From assembly GCA_036497565.1 (NCBI GenBank), contig DASXJE010000257.1, forward strand, positions 76,532 through 110,226: 33,695 bases of DNA. The letters run 5' to 3'. Below are positions 13,497-27,141 of this stretch, one piece after another. The DNA comes from Mycobacteriales bacterium (GTDB lineage Bacteria > Actinomycetota > Actinomycetes > Mycobacteriales > QHCD01). Both the position numbers and the translations under genes were made by a program. The stretch's first letter is position 1, and each line of letters opens with the position of its first letter. The notes beneath the pieces were generated by a model. The model had not been told where the DNA came from, did no database searches, and saw only the letters and a list, made by a program, of their open reading frames with translations.

Positions 13497-14081
13497 GTGG
13501 CCGGGTCTCATCGGAGTGCTGCGGCGCCCATCGAGTTCGCGCGTGCTGTCGCCAGCCTCGCATCGTGCGCGTTGCGTCCTGAGGTCGTCCTCGAAGAGAT
13601 CAGTCCGCCGCAACGGCTCGCCCCGTGGTCGCACGCGATCACCGCGGAAGTCGAGCTCGGCACCGACGTTCCGGCCAGCGGCCGGCTGGTGCTGCTCGGC
13701 GATCCGGACAGCGTGGGCGCCTGGGGCGGCACGCTGCGCCTGGTGACCTATGCGAGCACCGAGCTCGACACCGAGATGGCCAACGATCCGCTGCTTGCCG
13801 AGGTCGCCTGGAGCTGGCTGGTCGAGTCCCTCACCGACAAGGGCGCCCGCTATACCGCCGCGGGCGGCACGGTGACACAGACCGCGTCCGCGCGGTTCGG
13901 CGACCTCGCCGGGCCGGCGCACACCGTCGGCGTGGAGATCCGCGCATCCTGGACCCCGCTGGATTCCGACCTGCGTCCGCACCTGTCGGCGTGGGCAGAT
14001 CTGTTGTGCACCGCCGCCGGTCTCCCGCCGTCCGGAGTGGTGAGCCTGCCGGGCCGCGCCGGGATCGCGCGCCAGCCCTAG
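13497..14081 (+). CDS. DUF3000 domain-containing protein
   Basis: 194 residues. Matches the actinobacterial DUF3000 family of unknown function: an N-terminal FARAVASLASCALRPEVVLEEISPPQRLAPWSHAI, then a central GRLVLLGDPDSVGAWGGTLRLVTY and the AWSWLVESL stretch. DUF3000 genes usually sit beside hemE and RNase D in actinomycetes, as here. Start GTG 13497 is supported by the TAGGCT element exactly six bases upstream. Its stop is shared with the convergent kinase gene through CTAG at 14078-14081. Confidence 0.88.
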   Translation: MAGSHRSAAAPIEFARAVASLASCALRPEVVLEEISPPQRLAPWSHAITAEVELGTDVPASGRLVLLGDPDSVGAWGGTLRLVTYASTELDTEMANDPLLAEVAWSWLVESLTDKGARYTAAGGTVTQTASARFGDLAGPAHTVGVEIRASWTPLDSDLRPHLSAWADLLCTAAGLPPSGVVSLPGRAGIARQP

Positions 14082-15160
14082 GGCAGCTCGCTCGAGGTGG
14101 TGATGCGCCCGGGATCGCGGGTGGGTGACTGCGGGGTGAGCGAAAGCCGGAGCGTCAGCACCGTCCCCTGGCCGATGGCCGAGGTGACCACCAAACTCCC
14201 GCCGGCCAGGCGGGCCCGCTCGCGCAGCAGACCGAGCCCCACGTGCCTGCCCCCGGTGGACTGCACGGCGTCCGGATCGAAGCCGGGACCGTCGTCGGTG
14301 ACCCGGGCGATCAGGTAGTCGCCCTCGATCGCCAGCGAGGCATGCGCTTCGTCGACATCGGCGTGCTTGACCACGTTGAGCAGGGCTTCCTGGAAGAACC
14401 GGTAGATGGTCACGGCCGACACCAGGGGAAGCGGGTAGGGCTCGGTCGGCCATCTCAGCGATACGTCGAGCAGGTAGCGCGCCGCCATCTCCCGCCGCAG
14501 GCCCGCGACCGCGGACGCCAGGTCGCCGTCGCGGAGTTCCGGGGGCCTGGTCCTGGCCATCGCCGCCCGCAGTTGCTCCTCCGCGTCCTCCACGAATTCG
14601 CGTACCCGCTCCCACGCCCCGGGCTGACCCTCCGGGTTCCCGAGCAGGGAGCGGGCCGCCATCAAGGTCTGGGCGACGGTGTCGTGCAGATCGGCCGAGA
14701 GCTGTCCGCGGGTGGCCTCCTCGGCGGCGACCAGCCCGGAGAGTAGCTCGAACATCCCGGCACCGGCGGTGTGCGCCGAACGCTGCGCCTGCTCGGCCAT
14801 CTCCTCGGCGACGCGGGCCCGCAACTGCAGCGCGTCGAGCAGCCGCCCCATCTCCTGCAGCTCGCTGATCCGCTCGGCGGCGACGGAGAGACCCCGCGGA
14901 TCGGCCGGGGACGACCGGTGCACCGCGGAGGCCGCCAGCCGGCGGATGTCGAGCCCGATGCCGTGCGCGACAAAGGCTCCGGCGGCGGTGATCAGCAGCC
15001 CGACACCGAGCCCCGCGGCGAGCGCCGCGACCAGGGACCCGTTCCCGCCGAGGCGAAGGATGACCCCCACGACGACGAGCACCGCGAGGATGGTCGTGAA
15101 GAGGACCACCGCCACCCAGGCAGGCAGCGGCAACAGCCGCGGTCGACCCCCGCGGCTCAC
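14078..15160 (-). CDS. Sensor histidine kinase, HisKA_3 (NarL-type) family
   Basis: 360 residues. Two transmembrane segments (about 14-34 and 42-66) with almost no extracytoplasmic loop, a coiled cytoplasmic linker (about 90-150), the phosphorylation site ADLHDTVAQTL (His159), and a C-terminal HATPase with N-box FFQEALLNVVKHA, D-box DDGPGFD and G-box GLGLLRERARLAGG. It should phosphorylate a LuxR-type regulator, most likely the divergent gene at 17013. With so little outside the membrane, sensing may depend on the neighbouring GAF protein. I chose GTG 15160 because it forms a GTGA overlap with the upstream stop; a GTG at 15199 would add 13 residues and overlap by 43 bases. Confidence 0.88.
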   Translation of the reverse strand: MSRGGRPRLLPLPAWVAVVLFTTILAVLVVVGVILRLGGNGSLVAALAAGLGVGLLITAAGAFVAHGIGLDIRRLAASAVHRSSPADPRGLSVAAERISELQEMGRLLDALQLRARVAEEMAEQAQRSAHTAGAGMFELLSGLVAAEEATRGQLSADLHDTVAQTLMAARSLLGNPEGQPGAWERVREFVEDAEEQLRAAMARTRPPELRDGDLASAVAGLRREMAARYLLDVSLRWPTEPYPLPLVSAVTIYRFFQEALLNVVKHADVDEAHASLAIEGDYLIARVTDDGPGFDPDAVQSTGGRHVGLGLLRERARLAGGSLVVTSAIGQGTVLTLRLSLTPQSPTRDPGRITTSSELP

Positions 15161-16578
15161 CGGGTCTCGACTGCGTCGAGCCGTCCTGTCGTCGTCCACT
15201 CGGAGTCGGTGCCCACCGTGGGGGCGCGATGATGGTCGGCGGGGCCGATCAGCTCGGGTTCGCTGGTCAGGGCCACCGCACCGAGCAGGGACGCGACGGC
15301 GCGTTCGACCGCGTGCAGCTCATCGACGATGTCCCGCACAGGATCGGGGCCGGTGAAGGAAAAGGCGAGTCGGGACAGCCGTTCGGCCGACTCACGCAGG
15401 ACGACGAGCGCGGGCGCCGTATAGGCACCCAGGTCGCCGAGCGCACGGGCGGCGTCACCGTAGGCTTCGACCTGCCCGATCGCCACGTCGTGTCGGGCGG
15501 CCAGATCCGCGACCGACAACCAGGCCTCGGCCTGGCCGACGAGCACCTGGGCGAGCCGGGCATCGAGCCGCTCGAATCCGCCGGCCCGCTTCGGTCGCCG
15601 GGCGATCAGCACCGCAAGGGGCCGGCCCGGATCGCCGAGCACCGCCGAGCAGAAGGGACGATCGGCGTCCACGCCGGTGAGCACGCCCCGGGCGCCCATC
15701 GTGCGCAGCACCCACGGGGCGGCGAAGGCGCTGCTGTCGACCCGCTCCCTGCGGATGACGCCGTGCTCGTCGCCGACATACCGAACCGGTCCGTCGGGGT
15801 GCCGGAGCAGCATCTCGACCTCGGCCCCGCCGAAGAGGCGGGCCGCCGCGGTGAGCAGGACGTGTGCCGACGTGTCGACCGAGGTGGCGGCGATCTGCTC
15901 GCGGCCGCGGGCCAACTCCGCGAAGAGTCTCGCCTCGGCCGTGCGCTCCGTCTGCTGGCGGTAGGACCACCACAGCAGCACCAGCGGAACGACGAGACCG
16001 AGCAAGCCGAGGGGCGCGTTCTCGGCCAGCCAGGCGGCGAGCAGGCCGAGGGAGATGTTGCCGGCGACGTGGATCATGCCCAGGCCGCTGGTCTCGGCGA
16101 CGACCGCGGCGTAGGGACGGTGGGCGGTGATCGCGATCGGAATCGCGACCAGCAGGTAGTTGAGGCAGGCGAAGACAACCAGGCCGACCGCGGCCTGCGC
16201 TATCCCGCTGCCGAGGGTCTGGGTGACCAGCAGCCCGGCCGCGATGGCGCACGGGTACTGGGTGAGGTTGAAGACCAGCTTGATCCACGGCGACCGCCGG
16301 GCGTTGGCCAGCAGGAACGCCAGCAACACCCCGAGCGGGATCCACGCACCGGGGGCGAGGACGAAACCGATCGCCACGAAGGCGTCGGTCAACGCGACGG
16401 AATACCCCTGCCGGCCGATCACCATCCGGACGGTGGCGAATTCGGCCGCGGTCACGGCCGCGACGAAGGCGGGGAGTGCCCACCACGCCGGCGAGCCCCA
16501 GCCGAGGCGCACGCACAGGACCGCAGCAGCGGCCCCGAGCAGCCCGGCTGTCAGCAGGATCTTCTGCCGAGAGTTCAC
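15157..16578 (-). CDS. Polytopic membrane protein with GAF-like sensory domain
   Basis: 473 residues. About six or seven hydrophobic segments fill residues 5-210 (for example WWALPAFVAAVTAAEF, IPLGVLLAFLLA, AAVGLVVFACLNYLLVAIPIAI, LGLLGLVVPLVLLWW), like the N-terminal membrane modules seen on actinobacterial HD-GYP and sensor proteins. A GAF-like domain follows (about 215-350, with ILLTAA-type helix, VEMLLRHPDG and PLAVLIARRPK), then a helical C-terminus. No kinase, HD-GYP or GGDEF motif is present, so it is a sensor or scaffold rather than an enzyme. It overlaps the peptide gene (GTGA at 16575-16578) and the kinase gene, placing it in one operon with both. Confidence 0.75.
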   Translation of the reverse strand: MNSRQKILLTAGLLGAAAAVLCVRLGWGSPAWWALPAFVAAVTAAEFATVRMVIGRQGYSVALTDAFVAIGFVLAPGAWIPLGVLLAFLLANARRSPWIKLVFNLTQYPCAIAAGLLVTQTLGSGIAQAAVGLVVFACLNYLLVAIPIAITAHRPYAAVVAETSGLGMIHVAGNISLGLLAAWLAENAPLGLLGLVVPLVLLWWSYRQQTERTAEARLFAELARGREQIAATSVDTSAHVLLTAAARLFGGAEVEMLLRHPDGPVRYVGDEHGVIRRERVDSSAFAAPWVLRTMGARGVLTGVDADRPFCSAVLGDPGRPLAVLIARRPKRAGGFERLDARLAQVLVGQAEAWLSVADLAARHDVAIGQVEAYGDAARALGDLGAYTAPALVVLRESAERLSRLAFSFTGPDPVRDIVDELHAVERAVASLLGAVALTSEPELIGPADHHRAPTVGTDSEWTTTGRLDAVETR

Positions 16579-16760
16579 CGCCGGTCCGCGGGTCCCCAGA
16601 CGTGCGGCTGCTGGACCGTGGAGAAGCTCCAGGACGAGCCGGCAAGGCTCCAGGACGATCCGTCGGCGGGCCGTACCGCATGCCCACCGGTCACCGCGAT
16701 GCCCACGGCGAGCCCAAGGGCCGCCAACGTCGCCGTAATCCGCGCTATCAAGCGCCGCAT
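16575..16760 (-). CDS. Small secreted peptide precursor with SSW repeats (61 aa)
   Basis: A typical signal peptide covers residues 1-28: RRLIAR, a hydrophobic core, then GHA with cleavage likely after Ala28. The remaining 33 residues contain two copies of GSSWS (G34-S38, G41-S45), seven residues apart, plus a third Trp at 55. The repeat is also visible in DNA: GCTCCAGGACGA occurs at 16626-16637 and 16647-16658, a 21-base period. I do not recognise a family. Start ATG 16760 has AGAGG on the mRNA nearby, and CCTCT directly before the ATG could pair with it. Its stop overlaps the GAF gene start by four bases. A peptide signal for the adjoining sensor is inferred; a wall-associated small protein is the alternative. 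Confidence 0.68.
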   Translation of the reverse strand: MRRLIARITATLAALGLAVGIAVTGGHAVRPADGSSWSLAGSSWSFSTVQQPHVWGPADRR

Positions 16761-17012
16761 AGAGGCACCTCTTTTCTCAAGCGGCGCCCGCGTCTCGCCG
16801 ATCGAACGCGGTGAGCCGGTCTCGTCCACCTCGTGGTCCGTGGAGTTCTCATGCCCACGCAACCCCCGCACAAAATACCCCGAACGGAGTAGCATTCCTA
16901 GTGGTCAACGGGATCATCGTGGCCGTTCCATATGGACCGATCGTACGGCGTTCGACACACGCCGGGGATCGAAGACACTGCCGGCGGACGGCACGGACAG
17001 GGAGGACCCAGG
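16761..17012. other. Divergent intergenic region between the peptide operon and the response regulator
   Basis: This 252-base region must hold the promoters of both units. A/T-rich patches stand out: AAAATA at 16872-16877 (TATTTT on the minus strand, -10-like for the peptide operon) and TAGCAT at 16890-16895 on the plus strand. CCATATGG at 16928-16935 is an 8-bp palindrome. I find no convincing -35 at normal spacing for either, so exact promoters stay unassigned. Confidence 0.4.
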
Positions 17013-17720
17013 GTGGTAGTAGAGAACGCCAGCGGTCAAACAGCCGAGGCGACCCCGATGCCCGTGACGTCGCCACCGTTCACCGGCGACCAGTTCACCG
17101 CCCTCGTCGTCGATGATCACCCTCTTCTCCGGGAATCGATCATCACGCGCCTGCAGACCATGGGTGCTTCCCAGGTCTATGAGGCGGCGAGCATCTCCGA
17201 GGCCCGGGCGCGAGCCCACTCCACCGGTCCGCTGGACCTGTGTGTCCTCGACCTCGGGCTCCCGGACGGCAACGGGTTGGACCTGCTCGGCGAGCTGCGC
17301 GAGGCGGGCTGGACCCGCCTGGTCGTGCTGTCCGCCGCCGACGATCCCTACTCCGTCCGCGCGGCATTCGTCGCCGGCGCCCAGGGCTATCTGCTCAAAT
17401 CCGCGTCCCCATCCGTGGTCGCCGACGGGGTCCGGCGGGTCCTCGACGGCGGCGTCTACGCCGATCCCTCGGTGGCTTCCCTCCTGGCCGCCGGTCTGCG
17501 CGGCGGCCGGAGCGACTCGGGCGTGTCCGACCTGTCGGCCCGCGAGGTCGAAGTGCTCCGACTCGTCGCCGACGGCAAGTCCAACAAGGAGATCGGCGAC
17601 GCCCTGAGCCTGTCTGCACTGACGGTCAAGAGCCACCTGGCCCGGATCGCCCGCAAGCTCGGGACCGGTGACCGGGCCGAGATGGTGGCCCTGGTGATGC
17701 GCGCGGGGGTCATCCGCTGA
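17013..17720 (+). CDS. LuxR/NarL-family response regulator
   Basis: 235 residues. The receiver domain has the acidic pair D34/D35 (VVDDHP), the phosphoacceptor Asp80 (CVLDLGLPDG), LVVLSAADD and the conserved lysine in YLLKS. The GerE/LuxR HTH domain is at the C-terminus: LSAREVEVLRLVADGKSNKEIGDALSLSALTVKSHLARIARKLGT (shown by its key motifs EVEVLRLVADGKSNKEI and TVKSHL). It binds DNA as a dimer when phosphorylated. This regulator is part of the conserved DUF3000-RNase D neighbourhood of actinomycetes. GTG 17013 is chosen because GGGAGGA at 17000-17006 is six bases upstream. It starts divergently from the peptide-GAF-kinase operon. Confidence 0.9.
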   Translation: MVVENASGQTAEATPMPVTSPPFTGDQFTALVVDDHPLLRESIITRLQTMGASQVYEAASISEARARAHSTGPLDLCVLDLGLPDGNGLDLLGELREAGWTRLVVLSAADDPYSVRAAFVAGAQGYLLKSASPSVVADGVRRVLDGGVYADPSVASLLAAGLRGGRSDSGVSDLSAREVEVLRLVADGKSNKEIGDALSLSALTVKSHLARIARKLGTGDRAEMVALVMRAGVIR

Positions 17721-24153: not shown

Positions 24154-27141
24154 ATGACGATCGATGACCTCAGCCGTTCGCTACGACGTCCCTCGATCGA
24201 GTACCGCCCTGAGGTGCGGTGGTGGCTGGCCGAAGGCCTCCACACCGACGCCACGCTGCGGCATGAGATCGACACCGCGCACCAACTGGGCTTTGGCGGC
24301 ATGGAGTTCCTCGCCATGGATGAGGAGAACATCGACCACGCCCGCTACGGGTGGGGCTCCGAAGAATGGGTCCACGATTCCCAGATCGTCGTCGAGGAGA
24401 CGACCAGACGCGACATGTCGGTGAGCTTCACCTCGGGCACCAACTGGTCGAACGCGAATCTCCCCACTATCGGTCCGGACCATCCGGCGGCGGCCCAAGA
24501 ACTCGACGTCGCCATCGAACACCTACCGGCCGGCGCCTCGCGCGACGGCGCGCTGACCCGGGTCGACCCGAACGCCAGACCGGAGACCAGCATGATCCCC
24601 GGAGAGCGCGGCCCCATCCAGGCACTGACATTTGTTGCCGTCGTTGCCGCTCGTGTCGTCGAGGAGACAGCCACCGGAGCGATCCTCGACGCCGGGTCGG
24701 TGATCGACCTGACGGACCAGGTGCACGGCGAGTCGCTGAACTGGACGGCCCCCGAGCCCGGCAGGTGGCGGCTGTTCACCTACTGGATGCACGGAACTGG
24801 TCAGACCGCCTCTCCGTCGGCGTCCGTCAACTACACGGTGAACTACCTCGACCCGGACGGGGCGGAAGCCGTCATCGACTACTGGAACACCGTTGTGCTC
24901 ACCCCGGCACTGCGCCGACAGATCAGCCGCAACCCGCGGGTCCAGATGTATATGGACTCTCTGGAGCTGTCGACGTTCGGGGCTGCAGGACTGTTCTGGG
25001 GACGTACCGTCCGCGCCGAATTCCAGCGTCGCCGCGGATACGACATCGGCCCGTGGCTGCCCTTCCTCGCCAGAACCGTGCCGAGCATGGCCGCCGGCAC
25101 GGTCTATCACAACCAGGCGCTCGAGGAGCAGCGTGGCGAGGTGGAGAAGGTGCGGTTCGACTACGTCCGCACCCTCACAGACCTTTACATCGAGAACATG
25201 CTGCGACCCTTCGCGGCATTCCTGCACGCCAACGGCATGGGGCTTCGTTCCGAGATCAGCTACGGACTGCCGTTCGAGCTGACCCGGCCCGGTCCGGAGG
25301 TCGACGGAATCGAGACGGAATCCCTCGAATTCGGCTCCCAGATCGACGCGTACCGGCTGATGGCCGGTCCCGCTCACCTGTTCGGCAAGCAGTACTCGTC
25401 CGAGACCGGCGCGACGACCCGCAACCACATCCTCGATCACAGGTTTTACGACCAGATCATCGCAACTCAGCTCGCCGCGGGGATCACCAAGACGGTCCTG
25501 CACGGATGGGCCAGCACCGCCGGCGCCGAAGGCACGACCCAATGGCCAGGTCACGAGGGCATGTGGCCGATGTTCTCCGAGCGTTTCGACACCCGACAAC
25601 CGTCCGCGGAGTTCTACCCGCTGTGGACCGCGGCCGTCAGCCGCTACCAGTACATGCTCCGCCAGGGAAAACCACGGGTCGACGTCGGTATCCTGCGCAC
25701 CGACCACTTCACCGACAACATGTCGGGCTTCGCCTTTCTCGATCACGAGGGCAATCGGGTCCCTGACGAAGATGCCTACGGTCGTTGGTGGATGCGGAAT
25801 CGGCAGAACCACTGGTGGCAAGACCTGGGCATGCAGGACGCCGGATGGACCTACGAATTCTTCGATGGAACGCTGCTCCTGCGCGACGAGGTGTCCTTCG
25901 CCGCCGGGCTGGTTCAACCGAACGGCCCGGGTTATCAGGCGCTGATCGTCTTCCAGAGCGAACTCGACGCCGACGCGGCAGGAAGGGTTCTCGAGTGGGC
26001 CCGCCAAGGCTTGAAGGTCGTCATCGTGCACGGGGCCCGCGAGTTGAAGCAGCTGTTCGACGGGCAGTACTGGCACCATGACCATGCCGCTGCCCGCACA
26101 CCGGGCCTCGACGGGCGCGACGGCGAGCTCGCCGAAACGATGAAAGCGCTGACTGCGCTTCCCACGGTTGCTGAGATCGATGATCCGAGCGGCACTGTCG
26201 CCACACTCAGAAGCCTCGGCGTGATCGGACGAGCTGAGTTCACCAGCGACAACCCCAATGTGCTGTCCCACCTGCGCGAGGACGGGGACCTTCTGCACCT
26301 GTACCTCTACCACTTCCGCTACGAAACCGGCGAGCCGACCACGGTCCAGGTAGCTCTCCCCGGCGCCGGAGCGGTCTACCGAGTCGACGTATGGACAGGT
26401 GCCATCCTTCCGCATACCGGCAGCGTCGAGCAGACGCAGGGCCGAAGCATCGTCACCGTCGACCTCGCACCCGGGGAGACGGCCCTGTTCACTCTCGACC
26501 GCTCGGTCCCCGGCCACTCTGATCTCAAACCGGCTCGGAGCGAGACCCTGGCGGAACTCTCCGAGTGGGCCATCACCGTCGAGAGCTGGGACGCCGGCGA
26601 CCGCGAGCTGATCACCGAGGACCGCGGACTCGGCTACGTGACCCGCGAAACACGACCGACCACCCGCATCACCCGTCTGGACGGCGGTAACGGCAAACTG
26701 CGCCCCTGGCAGAGTATTTCGACGATCGGGCCCGACGTATCCGGAATCGGCGAGTACACCGCCAGCCTGCCGCTCGAGCACGGACCACAGGAAGGAGAAC
26801 GGTACGTCCTGGAGCTCGGCTCGACCGGCGGCGGTCTCGGCGCGGCAAGCGTCAACGATGGCGACCCGATCGGGTTCGACACCTCGCGCCCCATCGTCGA
26901 TGTCACCAGCGAGATGCACGCCGGCATCAACACAGTGACGATCCGAGTCGCAAGCTCGTTGAACAATCGGCTGCTAGCGCGCGGTTACTACGAGAACTTG
27001 GACGACGTCGGGGCACGCATCCTCGGCAAGCCACCGACCATGCAGACGACAGCCGTCCACGACCACGGCCTCCTGGGACCCGTGCGACTCCTCCGTGAAA
27101 CGAGCATGAACCAACCGACGCCCGGCAATCCGGAGGAGTGA
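24154..27141 (+). CDS. GH106-like glycoside hydrolase (putative alpha-L-rhamnosidase), cytoplasmic
   Basis: 995 residues. The N-terminal part (PEVRWWLAEGLHTDATLRHEIDTAHQLGFGGMEFLAMDE) opens a barrel domain like GH106 rhamnosidases; later conserved-looking stretches are MYMDSLELSTFGAAGLFW, LRSEISYGLPFEL and GKQYSSETGAT with HGWAS. A beta-rich C-terminus (about 830-970) ends in a galactose-binding-like jelly roll (YVLELGSTGGGLGAASVND to NTVTIRVASSLNNRLL). There is no signal peptide, so it should act on a glycoside imported by the divergent MFS transporter. I cannot name the catalytic acids with certainty. By eye it uses more A/T-ending codons than its neighbours. Start ATG 24154 has AAAGGA seven bases upstream. 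Rhamnose specificity is inferred from the family. Confidence 0.75.
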   Translation: MTIDDLSRSLRRPSIEYRPEVRWWLAEGLHTDATLRHEIDTAHQLGFGGMEFLAMDEENIDHARYGWGSEEWVHDSQIVVEETTRRDMSVSFTSGTNWSNANLPTIGPDHPAAAQELDVAIEHLPAGASRDGALTRVDPNARPETSMIPGERGPIQALTFVAVVAARVVEETATGAILDAGSVIDLTDQVHGESLNWTAPEPGRWRLFTYWMHGTGQTASPSASVNYTVNYLDPDGAEAVIDYWNTVVLTPALRRQISRNPRVQMYMDSLELSTFGAAGLFWGRTVRAEFQRRRGYDIGPWLPFLARTVPSMAAGTVYHNQALEEQRGEVEKVRFDYVRTLTDLYIENMLRPFAAFLHANGMGLRSEISYGLPFELTRPGPEVDGIETESLEFGSQIDAYRLMAGPAHLFGKQYSSETGATTRNHILDHRFYDQIIATQLAAGITKTVLHGWASTAGAEGTTQWPGHEGMWPMFSERFDTRQPSAEFYPLWTAAVSRYQYMLRQGKPRVDVGILRTDHFTDNMSGFAFLDHEGNRVPDEDAYGRWWMRNRQNHWWQDLGMQDAGWTYEFFDGTLLLRDEVSFAAGLVQPNGPGYQALIVFQSELDADAAGRVLEWARQGLKVVIVHGARELKQLFDGQYWHHDHAAARTPGLDGRDGELAETMKALTALPTVAEIDDPSGTVATLRSLGVIGRAEFTSDNPNVLSHLREDGDLLHLYLYHFRYETGEPTTVQVALPGAGAVYRVDVWTGAILPHTGSVEQTQGRSIVTVDLAPGETALFTLDRSVPGHSDLKPARSETLAELSEWAITVESWDAGDRELITEDRGLGYVTRETRPTTRITRLDGGNGKLRPWQSISTIGPDVSGIGEYTASLPLEHGPQEGERYVLELGSTGGGLGAASVNDGDPIGFDTSRPIVDVTSEMHAGINTVTIRVASSLNNRLLARGYYENLDDVGARILGKPPTMQTTAVHDHGLLGPVRLLRETSMNQPTPGNPEE

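Follow-up and report, generated by a model that had tools for sequence, protein, structure and literature searches.

The window, namely the entire 33,695-nucleotide stretch of Mycobacteriales DNA that was analyzed, contains a unit of four genes (Table 1), flanked by ribonuclease D, thiolase and 3-hydroxyacyl-CoA dehydrogenase genes on one side and a DUF3000 gene on the other. The smallest of the four encodes a 61-residue precursor (MRRLIARITATLAALGLAVGIAVTGGHAVRPADGSSWSLAGSSWSFSTVQQPHVWGPADRR, followed by the stop codon) in which a basic n-region, a hydrophobic core and small residues precede the mature part. As the preliminary description had reported, the precursor has a predicted signal peptide, here judged by eye, two GSSWS motifs and a third Trp. 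The GTGA overlaps that it noted are likewise present, and couple the peptide gene to the gene for a polytopic GAF protein (16575..16578) and the latter to the kinase gene (15157..15160).

Table 1. Features of the Trp-peptide locus in the window
Feature	Coordinates	Strand	Basis
Small secreted Trp-motif precursor, 61 aa	16575..16760	-	Sequence and positional equivalents in relatives
Predicted signal peptide, residues 1-28	16677..16760	-	Judged by eye from sequence
Shine-Dalgarno-like AGAGGTG ahead of the peptide ATG	16766..16772	-	Sequence
Trp motif 1, GSSWS, residues 34-38	16647..16661	-	Sequence; motif class as in protease tails
Trp motif 2, GSSWS, residues 41-45	16626..16640	-	Sequence
Trp motif 3, HVWG, residues 53-56	16593..16604	-	Sequence
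Polytopic membrane protein with cytoplasmic GAF domain	15157..16578	-	Sequence, predicted structure, Foldseek
MASE9-like membrane sensor domain, residues 1-210	15949..16578	-	Domain searches and predicted structure
GAF domain, about residues 234-370	15469..15879	-	Predicted structure and Foldseek
NarL-type histidine kinase (HisKA_3 / HATPase_c)	14078..15160	-	Pfam domains
Divergent response regulator (receiver + LuxR/GerE); GTG start 17013, alternative ATG 16932	17013..17720	+	Pfam domains

In the AlphaFold model of the GAF protein (pLDDT 80), a membrane part of about seven to eight helices precedes a C-terminal domain, which in Foldseek matches many GAF structures with a probability of about 1.00 and a best E-value of only 1.5e-3. 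By predicted structure, a GAF fold is present in this membrane protein, and the GAF label given to it earlier is right, being one that Pfam and NCBIfam do not reveal. When aligned members of the membrane domain were compared with Pfam MASE9 (PF20972), 8 of 33 matched weakly, with one marginally over the cut-off (24.4 against 24.3 bits), and because the resemblance is of this weak order we term the domain MASE9-like. It resembles MASE9 in being a polytopic N-terminal sensor of signaling proteins, but the window protein itself has no match to any Pfam or NCBIfam family. The kinase shows a HATPase_c match and a weak HisKA_3 match slightly below the cut-off, while the regulator matches Response_reg and GerE, in keeping with the original assignments of a histidine kinase and a LuxR-type regulator; the two constitute a NarL/FixJ two-component pair.

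Orthologs of the GAF protein were found in uncultured and other Actinomycetota, and the longer loci retain the order of RNase D, divergent regulator, a variable gene, GAF protein, kinase and DUF3000. The locus was seen in about 30 genomes, in which the variable slot alternates between an S8 protease with a Trp tail and a Trp peptide. The proposed unit of peptide, GAF protein, kinase and divergent regulator is thus conserved together at orthologous loci. Most often the slot is filled by an S8 subtilase whose catalytic Asp, His and Ser motifs are intact and whose C-terminal tail bears a Trp at every fifth residue. The pentads of the tails (ASSWS, ANSWS, AATWS, ANAWA, ARMWG, ARNWT and others) are fairly uniform within a protein and differ among genomes, and the units of a single tail vary widely in their codon versions. 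In six genomes, that of the window among them, a short secreted peptide with a Trp near its C-terminus fills the slot, with endings such as ...GSSWSLAGSSWS..HVWG.. in the window and SVVWLGSDT, TTTGVHWE, NGSAWD, SGAWE and TSTWG in the relatives. In the neighborhood of six other GAF-kinase orthologs neither a Trp-tailed protease nor a Trp peptide was detectable.

Within the window's clade the short peptides have little in common except the signal peptide and the Trp, and a homology search with the 61-residue peptide recovered, apart from itself, only one weak match, adjoining the GAF gene of another genome. Conservation of the peptide beside orthologous GAF and kinase genes, which the preliminary description had proposed as a check, holds in so far as the slot is kept as a secreted Trp-motif product, but the closest relatives do not retain the exact GSSWS repeat in their short peptides (VVW, VHWE, SAWD, GAWE, STWG). 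The position is occupied by a short secreted Trp ORF in five other genomes and by a Trp-tailed subtilase in most of the others, which is more than would be expected by chance. In the GAF tree, where one long-branched locus is of unsure placement, five of the six short-peptide loci fall in a single clade (support 99/98), as expected if protease and peptide had been swapped once; the tree is unrooted, and the exchange would have run from protease to peptide. At E 1e-15, no homolog of the tailed S8 was found in four genomes, namely that of the window, that of its family relative and two more, and a general S8 search of the window's genome gave one strong match, in a frame of 1144 residues. The window peptide, which lies immediately upstream of the MASE9-like gene, is devoid of an S8 catalytic domain and retains both the Trp motif and the sensor partner. 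Since the window's clade lacks the protease and keeps just the peptide with the motif, it is likely that the sensor needs the motif rather than the protease.

When the phylum was searched with the tailed S8 alignment, 34 of the 396 genomes had matches with E under 1e-60, and Trp tails were present in nearly all of the S8 matches examined. These tailed relatives have a complete S8 domain (PF00082) with intact active-site motifs. In each of the 20 extended loci, the tailed S8 gene is followed on the same strand, directly or after a second tailed S8, by a gene with the window-type membrane domain, and in the ten loci examined the outputs behind this domain are GGDEF-EAL or histidine kinases. In a wider set, the domain lies downstream of 34 of the 38 S8 genes with a tail and of none of the 11 without one (Fisher p about 5e-8); a few loci are counted twice in this comparison, and the p-values assume an independence among loci that does not fully hold. 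Since the membrane domain is common to differing outputs, namely GGDEF-EAL, HisKA kinases and GAF, the Trp motif has its constant partner in this domain of the GAF protein and not in the kinase. One of the small residues A, G, S and T occupies position -3 relative to the Trp in all of 101 tails and also in most of the short peptides. Paralogs in four genomes have their own Trp unit in each surveyed tail (e.g. ARQWS, GNAWT, GQSWY), and such tail-specific units within one genome are what separate channels would need. The tailed S8 proteins score far below the mycosin cut-off (TIGR03921), and the combination of a Trp-pentad tail with sensor pairing belongs neither to the S8 subtilases nor to the mycosins. 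One further S8 Trp tail seems to shift frame midway and ends in repeated ATGRRATGPP instead of Trp pentads. A β-helical pentapeptide-repeat reading of the tails was rejected, as it found a weak match, below the cut-off, for one tail only and is impossible for the short formats.

A survey was also made starting from the MASE9-like genes, which were sampled twice, from the order and from the class. A Trp tail lies upstream of 59 of 122 such genes versus none of 58 control windows, leaving about half of the surveyed genes untailed. Small ORFs were scored near untailed genes if preceded by a Shine-Dalgarno sequence, bearing a Trp in the last three residues and lying within 600 nt of the MASE9-like gene. 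Such ORFs were present at 14 of 58 untailed genes, compared with 3 of 284 windows taken at random and 4 of 104 distal ones, by criteria fixed after the first arrays (see below) had been seen, with the class sample fetched later. The other 44 of the 58 untailed genes tested, many of them from one genus, had no qualifying Trp small ORF within 600 nt. Secreted Trp small ORFs occur at 7 of the 58 versus 0 of 388 control windows. A single genus (g16) contributed 19 of the 122 surveyed genes, none of which is tailed, and two loci of this genus have a single possible mini-ORF, MRGNDWL, with a weak Shine-Dalgarno sequence. Among the secreted proteins are four built like the window peptide, with four copies of GAVWN, four of SNGWQ, four of [GA]ATWN and three of GTSWH, respectively, all ending in W-x-stop.

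In several genera, MASE9-like GGDEF-EAL genes are preceded by mini-ORFs, up to ten in tandem at a spacing of about 60-105 nt, each array member with its own Shine-Dalgarno sequence. Their products (MRGATWG, MQLDGTHWG, [MV]SNGWG and a pair of RGTHWG, each running directly into the stop codon) have no export signal, and six loci have tandem arrays of 6-10 mini-ORFs for near-identical peptides of 6-9 residues ending in WG-stop. The ratios of synonymous to nonsynonymous codons among copies are 34:0, 61:0, 49:0, 9:0, 45:11, 30:16 and 10:4, with the variation in the 45:11 and 30:16 arrays lying in the N-terminal residues, whereas the flanks of the copies are only about 30-45% identical. The synonymous differences, taken together with the unrelated flanks, indicate that the peptide sequence is the conserved part of the mini-ORFs. 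Thus, the Trp motif occurs beside the domain across Actinomycetota in three formats, namely tailed S8 proteases, small secreted Trp-repeat proteins and mini-ORF arrays. The likeness of the motif between these formats is suggestive; the motif is short, and homology is not thereby proven.

The window's own genome has three MASE9-like genes, one of them within the window, and a Trp peptide lies beside each, with two small secreted versions and one mini-ORF array. The second gene, an open frame of 889 residues, lies downstream of a secreted peptide ending in NSHKWY-stop, while the third adjoins five divergent mini-ORFs of the form MRGWHWTR/K-stop.

Given that a motif of the form small residue-x-x-W-x recurs beside one domain type irrespective of carrier and output, the simplest reading is that the domain recognizes the motif. 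We accordingly regard it as moderately probable that the four genes make up a sensory unit and that the MASE9-like domain has the secreted Trp-motif peptide as its ligand or as a dedicated extracytoplasmic partner. The precursor would be exported by Sec, and its Trp motif would be presented outside the membrane, either intact or following proteolysis, and bound by the MASE9-like domain. The state of the latter might then be relayed through the GAF domain to its partner kinase, and transcription would be altered by the divergent NarL-type regulator. In most relatives the motif would arrive as a tandem-pentad tail on the S8 protease, which could itself release or display it. The evidence is comparative throughout: it establishes the gene structure, the synteny, the association of peptide and sensor, the conservation of the mini-ORF peptides and the use of one slot by either protease or peptide, and from it we infer the export, processing, binding and signaling of the Trp peptide, as well as the direction of the response.

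The nearest competitor, which we consider unlikely, is that the Trp-motif protein is no signal but a permanent structural part of the sensor complex, as a subunit or "lid", while the sensor reads something else, such as the state of the envelope, a ligand or the cleavage of this lid by a protease. The pairing is near-obligate, the genes are coupled stop-to-start and the tailed form carries the motif on a large protein, all of which would suit such a subunit; however, the arrays, with 5-10 near-identical peptides of 6-9 residues, and the secreted proteins, with 3-4 spaced copies of the motif, resemble dosage or precursor formats more than a single subunit. Trp-rich repeats elsewhere bind envelope polymers, and the repeats could instead attach the protein to the cell envelope or direct it there, with the neighboring sensor monitoring the anchored protease or the envelope itself. 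This is improbable. While the tails are borne by secreted proteases with intact active-site motifs, and one of them weakly resembles pentapeptide repeats, formats with one to four motifs and peptides of seven residues would make poor anchors and yet have the same domain partner; moreover, a tail is predicted to be disordered (pLDDT under 50, from a shallow alignment). We give equally little credence to the window peptide being a functionless, decaying remnant of a lost S8-tail gene, for its open frame, signal peptide, Shine-Dalgarno sequence and GTGA coupling are all present, and the short form has been maintained through one deep clade and is found independently at other MASE9-like genes, even though an S8 gene fills the slot in most orthologous loci and the exact peptide sequence is poorly kept among relatives. 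That the mini-ORFs are leader peptides controlling the downstream gene by translation (attenuation), with the Trp irrelevant to any ligand, would suit their shortness, their position upstream of a sensor gene and the Trp near the stop, but is very improbable in view of the up to 7-10 separate copies with a Shine-Dalgarno sequence each, the divergent orientation in the window's genome, the lack of an Rfam match for the mini-ORF regions and the window, the conservation of the entire peptide and not of the Trp codon alone, and the similar motif in secreted proteins.

A broader version of the ligand or partner reading, which we hold tentatively and at somewhat less than even likelihood, is that the MASE9-like domains form a phylum-wide receptor family, each member reading its own short Trp peptide supplied in three interchangeable gene formats, and each paralog providing a separate channel to a kinase or to c-di-GMP turnover. 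MASE-type membrane sensor domains stand before c-di-GMP enzymes and kinases, and the literature searched contained no partner, ligand or partner peptide for MASE9; a Trp peptide accompanying the domain whatever its output would provide a testable candidate ligand across Actinomycetota. The open-licence PMC papers searched contained nothing on Trp-pentad tails, their pairing with a membrane sensor or the mini-ORF arrays. Within the scope of Pfam, NCBIfam, Rfam and this one paper library, the above points to a previously undescribed mode of peptide sensing. As tandem mini-ORFs are smaller than gene finders usually call, such peptides may be overlooked generally.

Among known systems, the preliminary description had drawn a loose analogy with ComX-ComP. 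In Bacillus, the Trp of ComX is prenylated by ComQ. The window does have a Trp-containing peptide adjoining a membrane-sensor two-component system. However, no isoprenyl transferase (ComQ) or ComX-like modification enzyme is encoded among the window genes on both sides of the peptide, in agreement with the earlier remark that no modification gene is adjacent, the sensor is a different one and no search linked the sensor domains, so that kinship with ComX-ComP is not supported. The yeast alpha-factor is a eukaryotic multi-copy prepropheromone, to which the four secreted repeat proteins are similar in having several spaced copies of a short motif in a secreted precursor; the latter are bacterial and carry a Trp motif, and the comparison is one of analogy only. 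The ComRS system of streptococci, with its double-Trp peptide pheromone (ComS/XIP), shares with the present loci a very short gene-encoded peptide, with a conserved Trp motif in its mature form, that is encoded beside the gene for its regulator (PMC5131902). It differs in that ComR is a cytoplasmic Rgg-type receptor, whereas the partner here is a polytopic membrane domain, and in that the peptides here are protease tails, secreted repeats or tandem arrays. Membership of the RRNPP/ComRS class was rejected, as no cytoplasmic Rgg/RNPP receptor is adjacent and the regulator is of the receiver-GerE type.

Elsewhere in the window, positions 24154-27141 encode a large protein matching alpha-L-rhamnosidase (GH106), which is unconnected with the Trp peptide.
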